From positions 372,001-436,000 of the forward strand of contig NZ_WKJH01000001.1 of NCBI RefSeq assembly GCF_009674825.1: a DNA stretch of 64,000 bases, read 5' to 3'. Shown here piece by piece: positions 7,877-59,156 of this stretch. The translations under genes were made by a program, and so were the position numbers. The first letter of the stretch is position 1. Every line of letters begins with the position of its first letter. Under the pieces are notes generated by a model. The model saw only the letters and a list, made by a program, of their open reading frames with translations. It did no database searches and was not told the DNA's origin. Source of the stretch: Maribacter luteus (GTDB lineage Bacteria; Bacteroidota; Bacteroidia; Flavobacteriales; Flavobacteriaceae).

Positions 7877-8548
7877 TTAGTTTATCCTAAACTTGATATA
7901 GGTGATTGGTTTTCCCTGTTCAAGATACTGCTTTTCGTAGAAAGTCTGAATAGATAATACTTCTTTTGGGCTTCCTTCATTCTTATATACATCGTGGTTC
8001 GCATAGATTACTTCCCGACCGGTACCGTGCAAAAGACCTAATGTATACCCGTGCATAAACTCACTATCCGTTTTTAAATGCATGAGTCCATTATCCATTA
8101 ATACCTCCGCATATTTTTTTAGAAAAACCTCATTGGTCATTCTATGCTTAGTCCTTTTATATTTTATTTGGGGATCCGGGAAGGTAATCCATATTTCGGA
8201 AACCTCATTTTTACCGAATATCTGATCAATGAGTTCTATTTGCGTACGAACAAAGGCAACATTACCCATCTCTTCCTCAATAGCGGTCTTTGCCCCTCTC
8301 CACAAACGGGCTCCCTTGATATCGATACCGATAAAATTCTTATTCGGATACATACGGGCCAGACCAAGGGTGTATTCACCTTTACCGCAACCCAGCTCTA
8401 GCACTATCGGGTTGTTATTCCCAAAATGATCATTCCAATTATCTTTAAGGGTAAAGGTCCCTTCCTCAATTTCCTTACGATTGGGCTGTACCACATTTTT
8501 GAACGTCTCGTTCTCCCTAAATCTCTTTAACTTGTTCTTGCTCCCCAC
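7877..8548 (-). CDS. trmB: tRNA (guanine-N7)-methyltransferase
   Basis: A 223-residue SAM-dependent methyltransferase that makes m7G46 in the tRNA variable loop. The SAM site LELGCGKGEYTLGLARMYP and the catalytic/tRNA-binding block WITFPDPQIKYKRTKHR are diagnostic. The start is a GTG (MGSKNKLKRFRENETF), since the nearby ATG at 8553 is out of frame and the family N-terminus begins here. It heads the trmB-lysE-ATL transcript. Confidence 0.95.
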   Translation of the reverse strand: MGSKNKLKRFRENETFKNVVQPNRKEIEEGTFTLKDNWNDHFGNNNPIVLELGCGKGEYTLGLARMYPNKNFIGIDIKGARLWRGAKTAIEEEMGNVAFVRTQIELIDQIFGKNEVSEIWITFPDPQIKYKRTKHRMTNEVFLKKYAEVLMDNGLMHLKTDSEFMHGYTLGLLHGTGREVIYANHDVYKNEGSPKEVLSIQTFYEKQYLEQGKPITYIKFRIN

Positions 8549-49507: not shown

Positions 49508-49563
49508 TTAAGCAAATCTTAAGAAAAGTCTAATGCCGCTTTAATTTAAATACGTAACTTTTG
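49508..49563 (+). promoter_or_regulatory. Four 11-bp-phased TTAAG boxes and -7 element, copy A (response regulator)
   Basis: Boxes start at 49508 (TTAAG), 49519 (TTAAG), 49530 (CTAAT) and 49541 (TTAAT), each 11 bp apart. The -7 element AACTTTTG starts at 49556, 15 bp after the start of box 4, and ends 4 bp before the ATG. Architecture identical to copies B and C. Confidence 0.75.
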
Positions 49564-49567
49564 TAGT

Positions 49568-50236
49568 ATGAGAATCTTGATCGTAGAAGATGAGCCAGGT
49601 ATATCCAACTTCTTAAAGCAAGGACTGGAAGAAGAATCCTATGCGGTGGATATTGCCGAGGAAGGCACTAAAGGCCTTCAACTGGCCCTTTCCGGGGAAT
49701 ATGATCTGTTGCTGTTGGATTGGATGTTGCCGGGTGTCAGTGGTATTGAAATCTGTCGTCTATTCAGAAAGGAATATAAAGACACGCCGGTTATTATTTT
49801 AACAGCAAAAGATACTGTTGATGAAACCGTTTTCGGGCTTCAATCCGGCGCTAACGATTATATCAAAAAACCTTTTCATTTTGAAGAACTTTTAGAACGG
49901 ATCAAGGTGCAATTACGACCTAAATCCGGGGAACATTCCATATTTATACTTGGAGACATTACTTTGAACACCGCAACCCATCAAGTCTTTAAATCGGAGG
50001 AAGAAATTAGTCTTACCCAAAAAGAATTTGCGTTGTTGGAATATCTAATGCGTAACAAGGGTATAGTTTGCCGAAGAACCCGAATTATTGAAAGTGTCTG
50101 GGATATCCATTTTGAATACAATACAGGAGTGATTGACGTATATATTAATGCCCTACGAAAAAAATTAAAGCTAGGCGAAGATGAAAACTACATTCAAACC
50201 GTTCGTGGGGTTGGCTATATAGCAAAAGAAGTATGA
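49568..50236 (+). CDS. CopR/CusR-like response regulator
   Basis: A 222-residue OmpR-family regulator. The receiver has the acidic pair VEDE, the phospho-acceptor Asp in LLLDWMLPGVSG and the Lys in IKKPFHFEE; the winged helix ends in RGVGYIAKEV. It resembles CopR/CusR-type regulators of metal efflux, and downstream genes include a CzcA-like efflux operon. Its start is 4 bp from the -7 element, so it is probably leaderless. The kinase overlaps its stop by 4 bp. Confidence 0.92.
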   Translation: MRILIVEDEPGISNFLKQGLEEESYAVDIAEEGTKGLQLALSGEYDLLLLDWMLPGVSGIEICRLFRKEYKDTPVIILTAKDTVDETVFGLQSGANDYIKKPFHFEELLERIKVQLRPKSGEHSIFILGDITLNTATHQVFKSEEEISLTQKEFALLEYLMRNKGIVCRRTRIIESVWDIHFEYNTGVIDVYINALRKKLKLGEDENYIQTVRGVGYIAKEV

Positions 50237-51606
50237 GATTAAGTTTTAAAAACAGAATTGTATTACATTATATGATCGCCACTGCCGTAATCATGGCCGT
50301 GGCTTTTATGGTTGTTTATTTTGTAGTACAAGGAACGGTATATCAAAACCTTGATGACGACCTGTCTTTCGAAGCAGAAAAACATACCGATGAAATAAGG
50401 ATTATCGGGGATAGTATCAAGATAAAGAACAAAAAGGAATGGGAGGAAAGAGAGCATCGTGAGGTTCAGGTAAACCCTGTTTTTATTCAAATCTTGGGTA
50501 AAGATGGAAACTATATGGATAAGTCGCCAAACCTTAAGGAAAATGTTCTCTCATTTAACCCAAAGCAAAACTATGGTGGCCATTTTAACGAAATCTTAAA
50601 CAATAGGTCAATTCGGCAAGTACAGTTACCTATTGAGGAAAATGGTAAAATAAAAGGGTTTATACTTGCAGCAATGTCATTGGAATCATCAAAAATGGTA
50701 TTGCTTAACCTGAGAAATGTTTTGATTATTTCCTATTTGTTTTTATTGGCGGGACTATATTTCATGTCTAGGTACTTGGCAGGACGTGGCATAATACCCG
50801 TGAAGGTCATCACCGAAACAACAAAAAGAATCACACAGAATAATTTGAATGAAAGGGTTATTCTTCCATATAACAAAGATGAGCTTTACGATTTATCGTT
50901 TAATATTAACGAGCTATTACAGCGTATTGAAAATGCTATCGAACGAAAACGGCAATTTACTTCTGATGCTTCCCACGAATTACGCACACCTTTATCAACT
51001 TTAAAAGGTACGCTTGAGGTATTGATTCGAAAGCCTAGGGAACAATCGGAATATGAGGAAAAAATCAAATACAGTCTTTCGGAAATTGACCGAATGACCG
51101 ACACTATTGAACAACTTTTACTGTTGGCGAGATTAGATGTCAATTCAAGAACAGTGGACAGGTCTCCCGTTCCTTTACCGAACATCATAGACGAAATCCT
51201 TTCAGGGCAAAAAAAACAGATCTTACAAAAGAAACTTACCATAGCCTTCCAAAAAGGGGTGCTTTTAGAAGAAATGGTTCCTCAGTACTACACCCAATTG
51301 ATAATGGAAAATATTATTGGTAATGCGGTAAAATATTCTAAAGTAGCTTCCACATTACATATCGAAATCACACGTTCGGGTCCGAATGTAATTTGCAATA
51401 TCCAAGATGAAGGTGTCGGGATTAAAAAAGAGGATCTGGATAACGTGTTCAAACGCTTTTTCAGATCCGATGCACTCCACCATAAAAATATCCCGGGAAA
51501 CGGTTTGGGCCTATCCATAGCGAAAAAGGCCGCCGATGCCATAAATGCCGAAATTCATGTAGAAAGTGAATTTGGTGAAGGAACCACTTTCACCATTTTA
51601 TTTTAA
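50233..51606 (+). CDS. Sensor histidine kinase (CusS-like)
   Basis: A 457-residue kinase with a first transmembrane helix (ATAVIMAVAFMVVYFVV), a periplasmic sensor domain of about 130 residues, a second helix (VLIISYLFLLAGLYFM), a HAMP domain, a HisKA domain (TSDASHELRTPLSTLKGTL) and an ATPase domain (ENIIGNAVKYS, DEGVGIKKED, GNGLGLSIAKKAA). It overlaps the regulator by 4 bp. The periplasmic sensor and the regulon content suggest that it detects metal ions outside the inner membrane. Confidence 0.92.
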   Translation: MRLSFKNRIVLHYMIATAVIMAVAFMVVYFVVQGTVYQNLDDDLSFEAEKHTDEIRIIGDSIKIKNKKEWEEREHREVQVNPVFIQILGKDGNYMDKSPNLKENVLSFNPKQNYGGHFNEILNNRSIRQVQLPIEENGKIKGFILAAMSLESSKMVLLNLRNVLIISYLFLLAGLYFMSRYLAGRGIIPVKVITETTKRITQNNLNERVILPYNKDELYDLSFNINELLQRIENAIERKRQFTSDASHELRTPLSTLKGTLEVLIRKPREQSEYEEKIKYSLSEIDRMTDTIEQLLLLARLDVNSRTVDRSPVPLPNIIDEILSGQKKQILQKKLTIAFQKGVLLEEMVPQYYTQLIMENIIGNAVKYSKVASTLHIEITRSGPNVICNIQDEGVGIKKEDLDNVFKRFFRSDALHHKNIPGNGLGLSIAKKAADAINAEIHVESEFGEGTTFTILF

Positions 51607-51658
51607 GCCAAACTTAAGTTTCACTTAATCCAGTTTTAAGTTGGTGCCTATACATTTG
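51603..51658 (+). promoter_or_regulatory. Four 11-bp-phased TTAAG boxes and -7 element, copy B (DUF2231-rubrerythrin)
   Basis: Boxes start at 51603 (TTAAG, overlapping the kinase stop codon), 51614 (TTAAG), 51625 (TTAAT) and 51636 (TTAAG). The -7 element TACATTTG starts at 51651, 15 bp after the start of box 4. Confidence 0.8.
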
Positions 51659-51683
51659 ATGTGTAATTGAAAATCACATTAAA

Positions 51684-52151
51684 ATGTTGACAGCACCACA
51701 CATTCACGCAATGGTTATCCACTTTCCGATAGCCTTGATATTAATAGGATTCCTATCGGAAATAATAGCGCTTATCAGTAAAAAGCATTTTTTTAAAAAT
51801 GTCGCATTTTATCTCTTGCTATTAGGTGCTTTGGGAGCAATAGTAGCTTACGTAAGTGGAAGTTATGCCGGAGACGGTATGATAGATGGAATTCTGCAAA
51901 AGCCCATGGAACTGCATGAAGAAGCAGCGAACCTAACGTTATGGCTTGCCATTATTACGGCCTTATTTCGCGTATTGTTGTATTACTTCAAATATGAAAG
52001 TACGTGGTCTAAATGGGTCGGGATCGTACTATTTGCAGCTCTAGTCGGTTCCGTGGTCCGAACAGGTTATTTAGGTGGGCAATTGGTTTTTCAGCATGGG
52101 GCCGGAATAGAATTGGCACTACCGGATTTTGGAAATCAACCTACGGATTAA
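51684..52151 (+). CDS. DUF2231 membrane protein
   Basis: A 155-residue protein with four transmembrane helices and the DUF2231 pattern: PHIHAMVIHFPIALILIGF at the start, a conserved His in MELHEEAANLTLW, and TGYLGGQLVFQHG near the end. These histidines could bind haem or metal. It is directly downstream of the phased TTAAG boxes, so it belongs to the regulon of the two-component system. A related protein is encoded at 58662. Confidence 0.82.
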   Translation: MLTAPHIHAMVIHFPIALILIGFLSEIIALISKKHFFKNVAFYLLLLGALGAIVAYVSGSYAGDGMIDGILQKPMELHEEAANLTLWLAIITALFRVLLYYFKYESTWSKWVGIVLFAALVGSVVRTGYLGGQLVFQHGAGIELALPDFGNQPTD

Positions 52152-52250
52152 AGTCGATTTTTAATCAGTTCCCTTGAAGGGATATGGAAAATGCACGATT
52201 ATCCTTGTATACACACACCCAAAAAAAGTAACTATTTAAAAATAAATAAA

Positions 52251-52958
52251 ATGAAAAAATCAGTAGTAGCATTAGTGATCGGAATGGTATTATCAAGTAT
52301 GCTTTTTCAATCTTGCAAGGACAAATCAGTACATAAAATTGAAGTCGGTACAGCAAATAAACAGAAGGAAATAGCGATGGGGGCCGATAAGGAACAGGAA
52401 AATCCCCAAAAAGCAACCATCCAAAACATGAAGGAAGCCTTTAAAGGAGAAACAACGGCACATGCCAAGTATGCTGCGTTTAGTAAAAAAGCGGCCGAAG
52501 AAGGTTACCCTGAAATAGCGATGCTTTTCAAGGCTGCATCCGGGGCGGAATTGATACACGCCAATAACCATAAAGTGGTATTGCAAAGAATGGGGGAGGG
52601 GCTCCCAACCGTGACCCCTGAATTTAACGTGGGCACGACCCTTGAAAATTTAAAGAATGCCATTGAAGGTGAAAGCTATGAGTTTAACACGATGTATCCA
52701 AACTTCATCAAGGTTGCCAATGCGGCAGAAAATTATATGGCACAGATAAGTTTGACTTATGCTTACAAAGTGGAGCAAAAGCACAGGGATTTTTATAAAG
52801 ATGCCTTAAAAGCCCTTGAAGATGGAAATGTAAAATCTTTGCCTTCAGTGTATTATCTATGTCCAACTTGCGGAAACACCTATGCGACCACAGCACCATC
52901 GCGCTGTGAAATTTCCATGACCGATGCAAAATTATTCATTAAAATAGATGCACTTTAA
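52251..52958 (+). CDS. Lipoprotein-anchored rubrerythrin-like protein
   Basis: A 235-residue protein with a lipoprotein signal (lipobox FQSC), then a ferritin-like diiron domain (EAFKGETTAHAKYAAFSKKA, then AELIHANNHKVVL, then EGESYEFNTMYP and KVEQKHRDFYKDAL) and a short rubredoxin-like C-terminus (YYLCPTCGNTY, PSRCEIS). The diiron Glu and His ligands appear intact. The rubredoxin site has only three of the usual four Cys. Rubrerythrins reduce peroxides and are usually cytoplasmic, so an anchored, exported form is uncommon. Start at ATG 52251. Confidence 0.85.
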   Translation: MKKSVVALVIGMVLSSMLFQSCKDKSVHKIEVGTANKQKEIAMGADKEQENPQKATIQNMKEAFKGETTAHAKYAAFSKKAAEEGYPEIAMLFKAASGAELIHANNHKVVLQRMGEGLPTVTPEFNVGTTLENLKNAIEGESYEFNTMYPNFIKVANAAENYMAQISLTYAYKVEQKHRDFYKDALKALEDGNVKSLPSVYYLCPTCGNTYATTAPSRCEISMTDAKLFIKIDAL

Positions 52959-52997
52959 AACTTTTTGATTGATGGTTAGTGTTTAGTTGTGATTGGC

Positions 52998-53030
52998 AAA
53001 GGCCCTGGATATTTTTCAGGGCTTTTGTTT
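52998..53030 (+). terminator. Terminator after the rubrerythrin gene
   Basis: GCCCTG and CAGGGC pair over a 9-nt loop, with flanking A before and T-rich sequence after. Confidence 0.7.
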
Positions 53031-53058
53031 TTTGGCCAATTGCCAAAGGGAACCTTTC

Positions 53059-53114
53059 TTAAGCGAATCTTAAGAAACCGTTTAGATGGCTCTTAGATAC
53101 ACCAAATACTTTTG
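53059..53114 (+). promoter_or_regulatory. Four 11-bp-phased TTAAG boxes and -7 element, copy C (czc operon)
   Basis: Boxes start at 53059 (TTAAG), 53070 (TTAAG), 53081 (TTTAG) and 53092 (CTTAG). The -7 element TACTTTTG starts at 53107, again 15 bp after the start of box 4. The ATG is 25 bp after its end. Confidence 0.8.
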
Positions 53115-53138
53115 GGATATAAATTAATAATCCATTAA

Positions 53139-56100
53139 ATGTTAGAACGAATTATCCAATACAGCATCCATCACAAACTCATCGTTCTCTTGTTTACCGC
53201 GGGTATTATTGGCTTTGGCTTATATTCCTTATCCAATATTCCCATTGGTGCAGTCCCCGATGTAACCAACAATCAGGTACAGGTCATCACAACTTCGAGA
53301 AATTTGGCTACTGAAGATGTAGAAAAGTTTTTGACCTATCCTGTGGAATTGGAAATGGCAAACTTACCAGGGGTCAAGGAAATCAGGTCGGTGTCGAAGT
53401 TTGGATTATCCGTGGTTACGGTGGTCTTCGATGATGATTTGGGTACATATCTTCCCCGTCAACTCATTGCGGAAAAAATAAAAAGTGCAGAAGAAAAAAT
53501 CCCTGCAGGTTTTGGAAAGCCTTTTATGGGACCCGTTTCAACCGGTCTTGGTGAAATCTACCAATATGTGATCGATGTAGATGCGAACCATAGAGACCAA
53601 TACTCCTTATCCGATGTACGTACCATTCAAGATTGGTTGGTAAAACGTCAACTTTCTGGTATTCCGGGTGTTGTGGAAGTAAATACTTGGGGAGGCTACC
53701 TAAAAACTTATGAAGTCGCCATAAACCCAGAACGACTTCGCGCGATGGACGTTTCCATCTTTGATGTGTTCCGTGCTTTGGAAAAAAATAATAGTGTCGC
53801 TGGGGGCGGGTATATAGAAAAAGTAAATGAAAGCTATTTCATTAGGGGCGAAGGCCTTGTGGGCTCTGTTCAGGATATTGAAGATATCGTCGTATCCAGT
53901 AAAGAAAATGTGCCGGTCTATGTACGGGATATTGCTGAAGTAGGCTTTGGTCATGCCAACCGTTTTGGTGCCATTACAGGAAATGGCGAAGGGGAAAAGG
54001 TGTTGGGCCAGGTAATGATGCTTAAAGATGCCAACTCCAATGCCGTTATCGAAGCTGTTAAACAACGTGTGGCCGAAATACAATCCTCATTACCTCCGGG
54101 CATTTCCATTAATCCTTTTCTAGAACGGAGCGAACTTATCGCCAAAACCACTTTTACCATAGCCGAAAACCTGATTTTGGGATGCTTGATCGTGATTTTC
54201 GTAGTAGTATTGCTTTTGGGCAACCTACGTTCCGGATTGGTGGTCGCGTCGGTTATTCCAATGAGTTTGCTTTTTGCCCTGTCCCTAATGTATATTTTCG
54301 GGGTAGATGCCAACTTAATGAGCTTAGGGGCGATCGACTTTGGGATAATCATTGATGGAGCTGTGATCATTGTTGAATTCATTGCCTATAGAATCACAAG
54401 TCAACGAGCGAAATTATTGGCACTTCCCAAAAGCAAAAGGCAAGGTTTAATAGATCAAATCACATATCAGGGTGCCTCCAAAATGATGAACTCAGCTGTA
54501 TTTGGGCAGTTGATCATCATCATCGTATTTATCCCGATCCTTTCCCTGGTAAACGTAGAAGGTAAAATGTTCCGCCCTATGGCTTTGGTATTCAGTTTCG
54601 CACTCACCGGAGCTATGGTATTGTGTTTTACCTACATTCCTGTAATGGCTTCGTTGTTCATAAAACCTTCAAATATCGAAAAACGAACGATTTCATCCAA
54701 ACTCATCGCTTTTCTTGAAGAAAAATACCAACCCACTATTTCATGGGCATTACGTAAAAAGAAATTGGTTTTAGGTATAGCCATAGGTTTATTGGCAATT
54801 ACTGCATTTCTATATACTAGGATGGGAGGCGAATTCGTGCCGACTTTGGACGAGGGTGATTTTGTGATTCAACCAGTATTGAAAACAGGAACATCATTAA
54901 GTAAAACTATTGAGGCTACTACTCGAATGGAAATAATATTGAAGAAATTCCCTGAGGTGGAGCAAGTTGTGAGTCGAATAGGTGCTGCTGAAGTTCCAAC
55001 GGACCCTATGTCAATGGAAGAAAGTGATGTTATCATCAAATTGAAGCCAAAAGGGGAATGGGTTTCCGCAGCAACGAAGGACGAATTGGCTGATAAATTC
55101 AAGGAAGCCTTATCAGAAATTGCGGGTGTTGATTTTGAGTTTACCCAACCTATCGAAATGCGATTTAACGAATTGATTACAGGTGTGCGTGCCGATTTGG
55201 CCATTAAGGTTTTCGGCGAAGATCTTGATGTCCTTTATAATAAGGCCTTGGAAATAGAAAAAGCAATCCAAAACGTGGATGGGGCTGCCGATATTTCCGT
55301 TGAAAAAACTGCAGGGCTTCCCCAAATGTCCGTGAAATATAACAGACGAAAAATCGCAAAGTACAACTTGAATATCGAAGACTTGAATAAAGTCGTCACC
55401 ATGGGATTTGCAGGTATACCTGCAGGTACTGTTTTCGAAGGGGAAAAGCAATTTGATATGGTACTTCGTTATGATGATGCCCACAGAAGGGATATTGAAA
55501 ATATAGAAACGGCTTCGGTATCATTACCCAATGGCATGAAATTACCATTAAGTGAATTCGCTAAGATAAGCTATACCAAAGGCCCTGCTAAAATCTCGCG
55601 TGATAATACCAAACGGCGCATCGTAGTAGGTGTGAATGTGCGAAACCGTGATTTAGAATCCGTGGTTAAGGATGTACAGTCGATCATAGAAAAGGATGTT
55701 AAACTACCTACCGGCTATTCCATAAGCTATGGAGGGCAATTTGAAAACCTACGTACTGCAACGGCAAGATTGAAAATTGCAGTCCCGATCGCTCTAGTTC
55801 TGATTTTTGTATTACTCTATTTCGCTTTCGATTCCGTAAAGGAAGCCTTAATGATATATAGTGCTATTCCGTTGTCTGCCATTGGCGGTGTTATGTTACT
55901 TTATTTAAGGGGATTACCATTTAGTATTTCAGCGGGTGTTGGTTTTATCGCTCTTTTTGGGATAGCCGTGTTAAACGGTATTGTATTGATCGAAGAATTT
56001 AAGGAGCTCAAGGCACACGGTGTCAGCAATATAAATAAGCGAATATTAATGGGAACCAAAAACAGATTGCGTCCCGTATTGTTGACCGCCGCGGCCGCCG

Positions 56101-57473
56101 CTTTAGGTTTTTTACCGATGGCAATTTCAACCTCTGCAGGTGCGGAAGTACAAAGACCCTTGGCAACAGTTGTTGTAGGGGGGTTGATCACGGCAACAGC
56201 CTTGACCTTGATCGTACTTCCCATTCTTTATGCGATGTTCGATAGGAAAGGACATCATCCAAAGGTCAAAAACAAAGTGAATCTAAAAGCTCTTGGTATT
56301 TTTACCCTACTATTCTTGCCCATTTTAGCGAGTGCCCAAGAAAACCCTATAACAGCAGAACAAGCAGTAAAGATAGCCCATGAGAACAATAAAGGACTAA
56401 AGGCCTACGCCAAAAAGGTAGACCAGTCCAAGCAGCTCGTTGGCAGTGCAATCAACGTGGATAAAACACAGGTGTATTATGGTTATGACGAAAATAACAT
56501 TGCCGAAAACGGTATTGCACTGAAAGTTTATGGGGTTAGTCAATCCTTACAATTTCCTACGATATATGGTGCCCTACGAAAAGTGGAAAAACAAAAAGTC
56601 GAGTTATCTACCCAACAATTCCGATTAAACGAGAGGGCCTTGACCAAAGCGGTTTATAAAGCCTATTACAATGTGGTGTACACTAACAGTCTTGTGGAAC
56701 AATACATTTTTTTGGATAGTCTCTATAGTCAATTTTCCAGAGCAGCTAATAAGCGCTATGATGTGGGTGAAACCAATTTGTTGGAAAAACTTGCGGCAGA
56801 GGCCAAACAAAAAGAAATATCCATATTGCTCGCGCAAACAAAAGAAGGGGTGGCAAAAGCATATACCGAGCTCTATCAGTGGATGCAGACTGATTCGTTG
56901 ATTACCCCGGAAGAGAAAAGTTTGCCCAAATTGGAATTACAGCAACCGAACTTTGGTAACCATCCGGGAATACTGTATTACGATTTCGCCCAGAAGTTGA
57001 GTAAATCGACCCTTTCTTTGGAAAGGCAAAGATTGCTTCCTGATTTACATATATCAGTCTTCCAAGGAAGGAATAACGGTTCAAATACAAAGCGATATAA
57101 TGGTTTTCAGGCGGGCATATCGATTCCTTTATGGTTCGGGGCGAACAAGGCAAAAATCAATGCGGCTAAAACAGAGACCATGATACTGGCCGATGAGTCT
57201 GAAAATTATAAAATACAACTGGAATCAAAACACAAAGGCTTGCTTTCCGATTTAAACAAATTTCAAGAAGCCATTGATTATTATGAAAACACGGGGGGCA
57301 AACTTGCAAAAGAATTAACTACCAATGCTTCGAAATCATTTAAAAACGGGGAGATAGACTTCTTACAATATGTACAGTTGTTGGAAAGTGCCAAAAACAT
57401 TCAAATCACCTATCTACAGAACCTAAACCAGTATAACGCCACGGTCTTAGAATTAAATTATTTAATCAATTGA
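53139..57473 (+). CDS. czcA: CzcA-type RND metal efflux pump fused to a TolC-like domain
   Basis: A 1444-residue fusion. Residues 1-1035 form a heavy-metal RND pump with twelve transmembrane helices and two large periplasmic loops. Helix 4 carries DFGIIIDGAVIIVEF (Asp400, Asp406), the form linked to divalent cations (Co, Zn, Cd) rather than the Cu/Ag CusA motif. Residues about 1068-1444 are an outer-membrane TolC/CusC-like coiled-coil domain (ITAEQAVKIAHENNKGLKAY). The two parts are joined by a signal-peptide-like segment (LKALGIFTLLFLPILASAQ). The start follows the phased TTAAG promoter. It is probably cleaved into pump and channel. Confidence 0.93.
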   Translation: MLERIIQYSIHHKLIVLLFTAGIIGFGLYSLSNIPIGAVPDVTNNQVQVITTSRNLATEDVEKFLTYPVELEMANLPGVKEIRSVSKFGLSVVTVVFDDDLGTYLPRQLIAEKIKSAEEKIPAGFGKPFMGPVSTGLGEIYQYVIDVDANHRDQYSLSDVRTIQDWLVKRQLSGIPGVVEVNTWGGYLKTYEVAINPERLRAMDVSIFDVFRALEKNNSVAGGGYIEKVNESYFIRGEGLVGSVQDIEDIVVSSKENVPVYVRDIAEVGFGHANRFGAITGNGEGEKVLGQVMMLKDANSNAVIEAVKQRVAEIQSSLPPGISINPFLERSELIAKTTFTIAENLILGCLIVIFVVVLLLGNLRSGLVVASVIPMSLLFALSLMYIFGVDANLMSLGAIDFGIIIDGAVIIVEFIAYRITSQRAKLLALPKSKRQGLIDQITYQGASKMMNSAVFGQLIIIIVFIPILSLVNVEGKMFRPMALVFSFALTGAMVLCFTYIPVMASLFIKPSNIEKRTISSKLIAFLEEKYQPTISWALRKKKLVLGIAIGLLAITAFLYTRMGGEFVPTLDEGDFVIQPVLKTGTSLSKTIEATTRMEIILKKFPEVEQVVSRIGAAEVPTDPMSMEESDVIIKLKPKGEWVSAATKDELADKFKEALSEIAGVDFEFTQPIEMRFNELITGVRADLAIKVFGEDLDVLYNKALEIEKAIQNVDGAADISVEKTAGLPQMSVKYNRRKIAKYNLNIEDLNKVVTMGFAGIPAGTVFEGEKQFDMVLRYDDAHRRDIENIETASVSLPNGMKLPLSEFAKISYTKGPAKISRDNTKRRIVVGVNVRNRDLESVVKDVQSIIEKDVKLPTGYSISYGGQFENLRTATARLKIAVPIALVLIFVLLYFAFDSVKEALMIYSAIPLSAIGGVMLLYLRGLPFSISAGVGFIALFGIAVLNGIVLIEEFKELKAHGVSNINKRILMGTKNRLRPVLLTAAAAALGFLPMAISTSAGAEVQRPLATVVVGGLITATALTLIVLPILYAMFDRKGHHPKVKNKVNLKALGIFTLLFLPILASAQENPITAEQAVKIAHENNKGLKAYAKKVDQSKQLVGSAINVDKTQVYYGYDENNIAENGIALKVYGVSQSLQFPTIYGALRKVEKQKVELSTQQFRLNERALTKAVYKAYYNVVYTNSLVEQYIFLDSLYSQFSRAANKRYDVGETNLLEKLAAEAKQKEISILLAQTKEGVAKAYTELYQWMQTDSLITPEEKSLPKLELQQPNFGNHPGILYYDFAQKLSKSTLSLERQRLLPDLHISVFQGRNNGSNTKRYNGFQAGISIPLWFGANKAKINAAKTETMILADESENYKIQLESKHKGLLSDLNKFQEAIDYYENTGGKLAKELTTNASKSFKNGEIDFLQYVQLLESAKNIQITYLQNLNQYNATVLELNYLIN

Positions 57474-57475
57474 TA

Positions 57476-58636
57476 ATGAAAAATAGAGTCAACAATTTTA
57501 CCAATGCCGTAAGTCTGATAAGTATTCTTTTTGTGTTAACCATGGTTTCCTGTAACCCAAAAGAAAAAACGGAAACGACAAACGCAGATGCAACGATAGG
57601 GATTAAAGGGCAAGAAATCATTTCCATTACCGAAAATCAATTCAAATCGGGTGGAATGAAAGTGGGGAATATGTCGATGCAAGAGTTCAATACCGTTGTA
57701 AAAGCAAACGGAATGTTCGCAGTGCCTCCACAAAACCAAGCTGATGTTAGTGCCTACTTTGCCGGTTATGTTAAAGACATCGGTTTATTGCCAGGGGATA
57801 GGGTCAAAAAAGGACAGGTGTTGTTTACTATTGAGAATCCGGATTATGTTCAGGTGCAACAAGATTTCTTGGAAGCCAAAGGACGCTTGAGCTATTTGGA
57901 ATCCGATTATGAACGCCAGAAAGAGCTGATGGCCGATAATGTGACTTCAAAAAAGAATTTCTTAAAAGCTAAATCGGAATATACCGTGACCTTGGTACAA
58001 TATCAATCCCTTAGGAAGAGGTTGAGCCTTATGAACATCGATCCGAATACCCTAACAGGCGAAACGATAAGATCTATTATTACTGTAACCTCACCTTTAT
58101 CGGGATATGCAACTTCCGTCAATGCAGGTAAAGGAATGTACCTAAATCCTTCCGATGTTGCAATGACCGTTACGAATACGGACGACCTACATATAGAATT
58201 GAAGATTTTCGAAAAAGACCTGCCAATGGTCAAAGTGGGTCAGCCAATCAACGTGAGGTTACAAAATGATATGGACAAGGTATATCAAGGTGTAGTCCAT
58301 TTAGTGAACAAGTCTATAAATGCCCAAAGTAGGACCATAGATATACATGGAGATTTTGTTAATGATGAGGAAGTACAATTATTTGCCCCTGGAATGTACA
58401 TTGAGGCTGAAATCCTGACCACTTCTGCAGAACATCCTGCATTACCTTCCAAAGCGGTTGCGAATATTGATAATGACTTTTTTGTACTTGTTAAAGAAGA
58501 TGATTCGAATTTCAAAAGGGTATTGGTCAAAATAGGTGCTACGAACAATGGATTTACCCAAATCCTTAATACAGCTGATTTTAAACCAGATACTGAATTT
58601 CTGATCAAAGGGGCATTCAACTTGATAACTGAGTAA
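57476..58636 (+). CDS. czcB: CzcB/CusB-like periplasmic adaptor lipoprotein
   Basis: A 386-residue RND adaptor with a lipoprotein signal (lipobox MVSC), a barrel-sandwich lipoyl domain (YFAGYVKDIGLLPGDRVKKG and SPLSGYATSVNAGKGMYL), a coiled-coil hairpin and a beta-barrel domain. It couples the pump and outer-membrane channel. A CzcB-type N-terminal metal-binding His stretch is not seen. The start follows the czcA stop by 2 bp; the frame also opens at a TTG just before. It lacks its own promoter. Confidence 0.92.
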   Translation: MKNRVNNFTNAVSLISILFVLTMVSCNPKEKTETTNADATIGIKGQEIISITENQFKSGGMKVGNMSMQEFNTVVKANGMFAVPPQNQADVSAYFAGYVKDIGLLPGDRVKKGQVLFTIENPDYVQVQQDFLEAKGRLSYLESDYERQKELMADNVTSKKNFLKAKSEYTVTLVQYQSLRKRLSLMNIDPNTLTGETIRSIITVTSPLSGYATSVNAGKGMYLNPSDVAMTVTNTDDLHIELKIFEKDLPMVKVGQPINVRLQNDMDKVYQGVVHLVNKSINAQSRTIDIHGDFVNDEEVQLFAPGMYIEAEILTTSAEHPALPSKAVANIDNDFFVLVKEDDSNFKRVLVKIGATNNGFTQILNTADFKPDTEFLIKGAFNLITE

Positions 58637-58661: not shown

Positions 58662-59156
58662 ATGATGAACGACGCACAATTACATTTAGTAGTAAACCAT
58701 CTTCCCATTGTGGGTGTATTGATCGGTTTTTTGGTTTTTCTGTCGGGTTGCGTAATCAAGAATCCCCAAGTAAAGAATACGGCACTAAGTATTTTCATTT
58801 TTAGTGCATTGACCAGTATTGCCGCTTTTTATACCGGCGACGGCGCAGAAGAAATCGTCGAAAATTCACCTGGAATCAGCGAAACCTTGATCCATGAACA
58901 TGAAGAGTATGCGGAGCTTTTTTTTACAATGATGCTGATTTTAGGAGGCACATCGCTAATAACCCTGATTCTCCAATACAAAAAATACGCGTTAGCTACT
59001 AGATACGGTTTTGTTTTTGTTCTACTCATTTCGATAGGTTCCATGGTCATTTCAAAATATGTAGGGTCGAGTGGAGGCGAGATTCGCCATACTGAAATTA
59101 GACATGATAAAGATATGATTCAATTAAATGTGGACTATGACAGCGATGACGATTAA
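58662..59156 (+). CDS. Second DUF2231-like membrane protein
   Basis: A 164-residue protein with four hydrophobic helices that parallels the protein at 51684 in order: LHLVVNHLPIVGVLIGF, a central histidine-rich loop (LIHEHEEYAELFF) and GSSGGEIRHTEIRHD near the C-terminus. Sequence identity between the two is low but the motif order is the same. It ends in an acidic tail (DYDSDDD). It is part of the efflux operon, and the next gene starts inside it. Confidence 0.72.
   Translation: MMNDAQLHLVVNHLPIVGVLIGFLVFLSGCVIKNPQVKNTALSIFIFSALTSIAAFYTGDGAEEIVENSPGISETLIHEHEEYAELFFTMMLILGGTSLITLILQYKKYALATRYGFVFVLLISIGSMVISKYVGSSGGEIRHTEIRHDKDMIQLNVDYDSDDD

Follow-up and report, generated by a model that had tools for sequence, protein, structure and literature searches.

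Four TTAAG-like boxes at an 11-bp pitch as probable operators of a metal-linked OmpR/PhoB-family response regulator in Maribacter luteus

Direct-repeat half-sites one helical turn apart are a hallmark of operators bound by OmpR/PhoB-family response regulators. The Escherichia coli pstS promoter, which is controlled by PhoB, has four direct half-sites at an exact 11-bp pitch (1201/1212/1223/1234 in sequence L154), the last of which starts 17 bp before TATTTT (1251), which we take to be the -10 element of this promoter. Bacillus subtilis PhoP acts through four repeats at about -20 to -60. These repeats are likewise direct, with the half-site TT(A/T/C)ACA and spacers of 5 ± 2 bp (PMC3036859; this and the other articles cited are drawn on in excerpt), and the pho box is described as two 11-nt direct repeats (PMC4415409). 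The PmrA box of the enterobacterial BasR/PmrA regulators, CTTAAG-N5-nTTAAT, consists of head-to-tail half-sites at the same pitch (PMC3973317). Among regulators of metal resistance, the binding sites of AgrR, CopR and PcoR are inverted repeats contained in 16 bp, and the stretch of its own promoter that AgrR, a proposed Type II activator, protects runs from about -63 to -32 (PMC7380067). Here we analysed 64,000 nucleotides of the Maribacter luteus genome (contig NZ_WKJH01000001.1, positions 372,001 to 436,000, forward strand; hereafter the window, to which all coordinates refer). Three promoters in it, upstream of the genes for an OmpR/PhoB-family response regulator (RR), a DUF2231 membrane protein and a CzcA-type efflux pump, each carry four TTAAG-like boxes, arranged head-to-tail at 11-bp intervals as in pstS and the PmrA box.

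All window features described below lie on the forward strand. Operator 1, at the RR promoter (49508..49545, about -60 to -23), consists of TTAAG at 49508, TTAAG at 49519, CTAAT at 49530 and TTAAT at 49541, and is followed by the -7 element AACTTTTG (49556..49563), which is one base off TAnnTTTG. Operator 2, at the DUF2231 promoter (51603..51640; TTAAG at 51603, TTAAG at 51614, TTAAT at 51625 and TTAAG at 51636), precedes the -7 element TACATTTG (51651..51658) and a predicted transcription start near 51663. Operator 3, at the czcA promoter (53059..53096; TTAAG at 53059, TTAAG at 53070, TTTAG at 53081 and CTTAG at 53092), precedes TACTTTTG (53107..53114) and a predicted start near 53119. Direct reading of the sequence located 12 of 12 boxes exactly where a preliminary description of the window had placed them. 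The box offsets (0/11/22/33) are identical at the three promoters, and at each of them 15 bp separate the start of box 4 from that of the -7 element, both as that description had stated. No fifth box was found upstream or downstream of the array, either in the window or in the aligned loci. Box 1 of operator 2 (51603-51607) overlaps the stop codon of the sensor kinase gene (51604-51606). In the window as in many relatives, 2035 bp separate the start of this array from that of the RR (locus positions 8036 and 6001), so that the coding end of the kinase and the operator seem to be locked together.

The composite pattern of four boxes and a -7 element proposed earlier matched the window three times, with 1, 0 and 0 mismatches, and gave zero matches at up to 3 mismatches in 100 shuffles of the window. 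Across the whole 4.65-Mb genome, the same three sites and none besides were found at up to 3 mismatches, and the reversed pattern yielded one match. A looser pattern of boxes 1-2 plus the -7 element ranked the three arrays first in the genome with 0, 0 and 1 mismatches; at 2 mismatches it gave 16 further sites versus 11 for the reversed control. The composite pattern was derived from these very sites, and an independent weight matrix is therefore the weightier test. Trained on 44 nonredundant RR promoters from other genomes, this matrix scored the DUF2231 array at 29.3 and the czcA array at 33.2, with the next-best window position at 9.2. Its best score on 64-kb first-order Markov sequences was 22.3 in one of 30, which equals the score of the weakest training site, and at most 14.0 in the remaining 29. 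By the shuffles, the reversed pattern and the Markov sequences alike, the boxes lie far above chance.

Relatives of the locus were collected by a search with the RR protein, which was blind to upstream DNA. It confirmed 426 homologue stretches, of which the best 80 (77-95% identity) were analysed; upstream sequence was present for 79 of them. The nearest loci, those of Maribacter polysiphoniae and M. aquimaris, are 95% identical. TTAAG-N6-TTAAG (up to 2 mismatches, within 160 bp upstream of the RR) occurs in 74 of the 79 loci, and the array stands 59-61 nt ahead of the RR ATG in 68, whose record titles range from Maribacter to Saprospiraceae and Cyclobacterium. The matrix built from RR promoters also locates non-RR arrays in most loci. 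Where the 5' end of czcA is present on the same strand, an array lies 40-260 bp upstream of it in 62 of 64 loci, and the two loci without one are both from Dyadobacter. The boxes are thus kept in relatives, a point on which the preliminary description had staked its proposal. Column information in the 68 loci is 1.9-2.0 bits for boxes 1 and 2, 1.2-1.4 bits for the core AA of box 3 and 1.05-1.7 bits for TTAA of box 4. The spacer between boxes 1 and 2 is conserved too (CnAATC), and three As following box 2 have 0.8-1.3 bits; the nine remaining columns between boxes 2, 3 and 4 have just 0.04-0.5 bits.

The arrays also accompany the regulator from genome to genome. Among 40 relatives, an RR match (E of 1e-40 or better) was present in five, namely four of the 12 same-genus genomes and G028. 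Arrays at up to 1 mismatch were confined to the four RR-bearing same-genus genomes (3, 3, 2 and 3 arrays). The remaining 36 relatives had none, among them the eight same-genus genomes without the RR, three of which are 68-83% complete. One weak match each was seen in G007 and G025, and the reversed control gave four at up to 3 mismatches in the 40 relatives. In a set of 392 genomes from the phylum, an RR homologue (E of 1e-60 or better) was found in 123 and an array of the looser pattern in 74 (91 places); both are present in 55 genomes (odds ratio 10.6, Fisher 1.7e-17). Of the 91 places, 37 are no more than 5 kb from the homologue, where about 0.25 would be expected. The full pattern with the -7 element gave 41 arrays in 32 of these genomes and two matches in the reversed control, with 31 of the 41 arrays located within 5 kb of an RR homologue. 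Conservation and co-occurrence with the RR support the earlier suggestion that the sites would be the operators through which the adjacent regulator controls a single regulon.

The RR (49568..50236) has Response_reg and Trans_reg_C domains (PF00072, 1e-29; PF00486, 3e-26), both above cut-off, which places it in the OmpR/PhoB family, and the 11-bp pitch agrees with the direct-repeat half-sites one helical turn apart to which such a regulator would be expected to bind. Its recognition helix is near-invariant across loci (N185, D190, V191, N194 and R197 at 0.99-1.00). Taken together, the sequence data make it very probable that the arrays are operators of this metal RR, occupied by two tandem dimers and mediating autoregulation and activation of czcA and its neighbours. 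In the proposed mechanism, His and Glu residues in the outer loop of the kinase would sense a divalent metal, and the phosphorylated RR would bind half-sites head-to-tail, one helical turn apart. The nearly invariant boxes 1-2 would hold one dimer with high affinity, and the looser boxes 3-4 a second dimer adjoining the -33 region, between -33 and the -7 element, where it would assist initiation of transcription by RNA polymerase and its divergent sigma factor. The targets would be the two-component operon itself, the DUF2231 gene (with rubrerythrin) and the CzcA/CzcB efflux genes. The proximal dimer may set promoter strength, the RR gene being partly on without it and the efflux pump needing it. 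From position and logic, we infer activation rather than repression.

In Flavobacterium johnsoniae, the -7 element reads T-12 A-11 ... T-8 T-7 T-6 G-5 and transcription starts 4-5 nt beyond it; the promoters have A/T-rich motifs at -18 and -28 and a faint motif at -33 (PMC6847099). When the G of the -7 element is counted as -5 by this spacing, the boxes are placed at about -60, -49, -38 and -27. Box 4 would thus cover about -27 to -23, with -33 just past box 3, which corrects the earlier assignment of the last box to the -33 region. The RR start codon follows the last base of the -7 element by 5 nt (window 49563-49568). This spacing and the constant distance of 59-61 nt from array to ATG lead us to predict that transcription of the RR gene starts at 49568 ± 1, the A of ATG, and that its mRNA is leaderless. 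An alternative RR start is not likely, since the RR alignment begins at residue 1 in all 80 loci. Leaderless mRNAs are an uncommon class, at 5.5% for 890 genes in Flavobacterium psychrophilum (PMC9723704), and 87% of predicted transcripts in F. johnsoniae have leaders longer than 10 nt (PMC6847099). The czcA and DUF2231 mRNAs would have leaders of about 20 nt.

Boxes 3 and 4 differ systematically between the regulator's own promoter and that of the pump. The core T.A at offsets 0/11/22/33 has frequencies of 1.0/1.0/0.88/0.95 in czcA promoters (43 nonredundant of 61) and 1.0/1.0/0.63/0.80 in RR promoters (46 nonredundant of 69), where composition predicts 0.11 and 0.13, respectively. Both sets were chosen by the matrix including RR-type boxes 3-4 (score of at least 14), which introduces a mild bias, but the czcA boxes 3-4 are unlike that type. 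The final G of box 3 is present in 11 of 46 RR promoters versus 35 of 43 czcA promoters (Fisher 5.5e-8), and that of box 4 in 4 of 46 versus 39 of 43 (Fisher 4e-16), both values ignoring relatedness. The A/T content from box 4 to the -7 element is 0.77 in RR promoters versus 0.55 in czcA promoters. Own promoters accordingly form a class with YTAAT/TTAAn as boxes 3/4 and an A/T-rich stretch before the -7 element, and czcA promoters a class with YTnAG/YTTAG. The window follows these classes with CTAAT/TTAAT at the RR gene and TTTAG/CTTAG at czcA, and TTAAT/TTAAG at DUF2231 is intermediate. This difference suggests that the proximal dimer sets the strength of each promoter; we infer that its contribution would be greatest at czcA and that the gene of the regulator would retain a basal promoter.

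Several observations weigh against the arrays being operators of this metal regulator. The array is absent from the standard RR position in 11 of 79 loci; five of these have no array at all (up to 2 mismatches, 160 bp) and six have it at 101-160 nt. Boxes 3-4 of the own promoter are loose (box 3 T.A at 0.63), and the frame of its box 4 is blurred, with 0.63 at offset 32 beside 0.80 at offset 33, compared with 0.02 versus 0.95 at czcA. The loci are related by descent, so that the p-values overstate independence. G028 has a 44% identical RR homologue without arrays, and the looser phylum pattern is noisy, the reversed control giving about 56 places (counted by eye; 15 in one genome) versus 91. 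Ten of the 41 full arrays have no RR homologue nearby, including that of G356 (at a receptor gene) and the TTAACA-type arrays of G185 and G402, and in genus g30 the arrays stand far from the RR homologue, before a receptor gene. In addition, both proteins of the two-component system score under the cut-offs of the heavy-metal subfamilies that are their best NCBIfam matches (RR, TIGR01387, 223.7 bits, cut-off 279.2; kinase, TIGR01386, 198.4 bits, cut-off 292.55).

The systematic difference between own and czcA promoters could also mean that full occupancy represses: boxes 1-2 would activate, and a second dimer on boxes 3-4 would block RNA polymerase, so that the RR limits itself. E. coli PhoB at high level represses its own promoter via a weak extra site near -10 (PMC6194859), and this self-repression could be a precedent for unlike rules at own and target promoters. 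Repression by the second dimer is nevertheless unlikely, because an efflux pump must be induced by its signal and it is czcA that has the better boxes 3-4. Moreover, pstS, which has four half-sites at nearly the same position, is a textbook example of an activated promoter.

By our estimate, a shade less probable is the explanation that the RR binds only boxes 1-2 and that boxes 3-4 belong to an ordinary A/T-rich core promoter. Box 4 at -27 is near the A/T-rich -28 motif of F. johnsoniae (PMC6847099), and the looseness of boxes 3-4 in RR promoters would be in keeping with this explanation. However, 79 nonredundant generic promoters aligned on the -7 element, from which promoters with TTAAG at the place of boxes 1-2 had been excluded, show no T.A enrichment at boxes 3-4 (only 0.11 and 0.08 at offsets 22 and 33), and czcA boxes 3-4 retain their G in the TTAAG frame. 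A mere A/T-rich core promoter was rejected by comparison with these generic promoters, and, as far as sequence can tell, boxes 3 and 4 are genuine half-sites.

It is very unlikely that another OmpR-family protein of the cell binds the arrays. The g30 arrays away from the RR homologue, and a second half-site family, TTAAC, with the same register, would agree with such a protein, but array and RR are present or absent together within the genus, and the array fronts the RR itself in 68 of 79 loci. Conservation also makes chance or low-complexity likeness among A/T-rich promoters negligible as an explanation: such likeness would be favoured by the A/T content of the motif and the background of looser patterns, but the shuffles, the genome search, the Markov sequences, the generic promoters and the same-genus co-occurrence all oppose it.

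The second half-site family came from four-fold GTTAAG arrays, which were rejected as part of the metal regulon because they are TTAACA direct repeats on the opposite strand. Of ten such arrays inspected, partly by eye (L141-L149), seven have four boxes, one has five and two have six, all at an 11-bp pitch. The distance from the start of the last box to a -7-like element is 15 bp in L141a, L145, L146, L147, L148 and, as judged by eye, L149. Poorer -7-like forms, likewise judged by eye, lie at 15-16 bp in L142, L143 and L144, and L141b is ambiguous. The genes behind these arrays encode seven TonB receptors that carry CarbopepD_reg, and two more genes match Porin_O_P, one of them above and the other just below cut-off; that they may form a phosphate regulon is a guess. 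In searches for half-site pairs followed at any distance by TAnnTTTG, 47 of 91 TTAAC pairs were at 15/16, 26/27 or 37/38 bp versus 17.6 expected from a flat distribution, with five at 15/16 alone, and 47 of 89 TTAAG pairs were at 26/27, 37/38 or 48/49 bp versus 17.2 expected; TTAAG registers shifted by 2 to 9 bp had 6-14 each. These counts are among the matches listed, those for TTAAC after removal of near-copies. The matches were transcribed by hand and the promoters are related by descent, and the reversed control also gave many matches, so that the distances alone count. One promoter, found repeatedly among g30 genomes, falls outside these registers with a distance of 28-29 and carries little weight once copies are removed. 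With chances that we consider evenly balanced, OmpR/PhoB activators of Bacteroidota would share a grammar in which the pitch is 11 bp and 15-16 bp separate the start of the last half-site from the -7 element, irrespective of half-site sequence and with four, five or six boxes, and in which the code of the proximal pair (YTAAT/TTAAn at the regulator's own leaderless gene, YTnAG/YTTAG at efflux genes) sets the order of response. Its half-site classes would perhaps be TTAAG for metal and TTAACA for phosphate.

The genes of the locus bear on the signal. The sensor histidine kinase (50233..51606), identified by domain and NCBIfam searches, was compared with those of 75 of the 80 loci, which gave 48 nonredundant sequences. 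H51, E74 and H75, which lie between the two membrane segments as placed by eye, are invariant (48/48), and E54, E72 and H117 are present in 44/48, 46/48 and 34/48, respectively. CzcA (53139..57473) scores 1142.3 bits against TIGR00914 (CusA/CzcA heavy-metal RND; cut-off 701.45) and is fused to an outer-membrane factor (OEP) domain (PF02321). Its top-scoring solved structure is ZneA (4k0e), a zinc pump with which it has DFGII(I/V)DGA in common. By eye, no Met is found at the three positions aligned to the methionine relay of CusA, presumably M573, M623 and M672, so that CzcA does not resemble the Cu/Ag-type CusA in this respect. A divalent metal (zinc, cobalt, cadmium, nickel or iron) would fit better as the signal than copper(I). 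The metal-stress regulon of the preliminary description thus gains indirect support for its link to metal from the ZneA-type CzcA and the invariant His and Glu residues of the kinase. The CzcA-OEP fusion is a single protein of 1444 aa, with 1425-1452 aa in many relatives and 1038 aa in M. polysiphoniae and M. aquimaris.

The other genes of the locus are those of the DUF2231 membrane protein (51684..52151; PF09990, 2.1e-19), a rubrerythrin-like protein assigned by domain scan (52251..52958), for which the window scan found no array of its own, a CzcB-type periplasmic adaptor (57470..58636; TIGR01730, 131.7 bits, cut-off 94.9) and a second DUF2231-like membrane protein (58662..59156; match under the Pfam cut-off). 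In relatives, an array precedes a rubrerythrin homologue in 7 of 80 loci and a homologue of the second DUF2231-like protein in three Aequorivita loci (L013, L016 and L018). The rubrerythrin gene of Aequorivita also has an array to itself. The first open reading frames behind other arrays, in single loci chosen for a domain scan, matched Thioredoxin_7 (two), Haem_bd, VIT1, Rieske, DUF302 and DUF2231, and one further frame matched DUF2490 below cut-off.

Some loci depart from the common arrangement. L082 and L083, from records titled Melioribacteraceae and Calditrichota, have an RR at 78% identity and a similar array, which reflects either recent transfer or wrong binning. In family f32 (L117-L133), 11 of 14 loci have a TTAAG pair and further boxes at 636-698 bp upstream of the RR, apparently fronting an extra upstream gene, and no such pair was found at up to 1 mismatch in L125, L126 and L132. 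A different spacing for f32, with L152 read as a TATAAT promoter, was rejected because more loci show a -7-like element at the same place. In seven genomes of g30, probably the genus Flavobacterium (L134-L140), a large receptor gene, by eye that of a siderophore-type TonB receptor, is preceded at 124-128 bp by near-metal-type arrays with TTAAG boxes 1-2 and looser boxes 3-4.

Among the open-licence papers listed in literature searches, none was seen to describe a two-component operator of Bacteroidota that responds to metal, and nothing to the point appeared on a TTAAG operator in this phylum. The excerpts of PMC10434189, PMC11253607, PMC6232261 and PMC12404567 say nothing about these operators, and in that of PMC3547664 a Pho box of Bacteroides fragilis is merely named. 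This absence weakly suggests that the operator is new. A conserved operator allows regulon prediction from sequence, which in relatives extends to rubrerythrin, VIT1-domain, DUF2231, thioredoxin-like and haem-binding proteins, and its fixed register to the -7 element offers direct access to the question of how activators and the divergent sigma factor of the phylum cooperate.

The layout of the three arrays is that of PhoB-type class II promoters, in which tandem half-sites end just upstream of the -10 or -7 element: the last box starts 15 bp before the -7 element, or 16 bp when counted from CTTAAG, close to the 17 bp of pstS. Because pstS has four half-sites at an 11-bp pitch, the four-box plan is of a known kind, and the earlier view that four half-sites are unusually long does not stand. 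The pstS promoter differs in its half-site (CTGTCAT), phosphate signal and sigma-70 promoter, and the RR scores 198.5 bits against the PhoB profile (cut-off 296.2). B. subtilis PhoP differs as a Gram-positive regulator responding to phosphate through another half-site. Boxes 1-2, (T/C)TTAAG-N5-CTTAAG, match the PmrA box except at two bases, the first of box 1 and the last of box 2, and may work like one, whereas the PmrA box has two half-sites and the window arrays four, and the RR is not a PmrA member (NF007928, 163.4 bits, cut-off 330). AgrR, CopR and PcoR share metal-resistance targets and autoregulation with the proposed role of the RR. Their operators differ from the four direct repeats of the window, where the conserved columns form direct repeats rather than the 6-4-6 inverted repeat, no dedicated inverted-repeat scan having been made. 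In summary, the PhoB-type plan is known, and the regulator, its half-site code, the difference between own and target promoters and the predicted leaderless RR gene are new.

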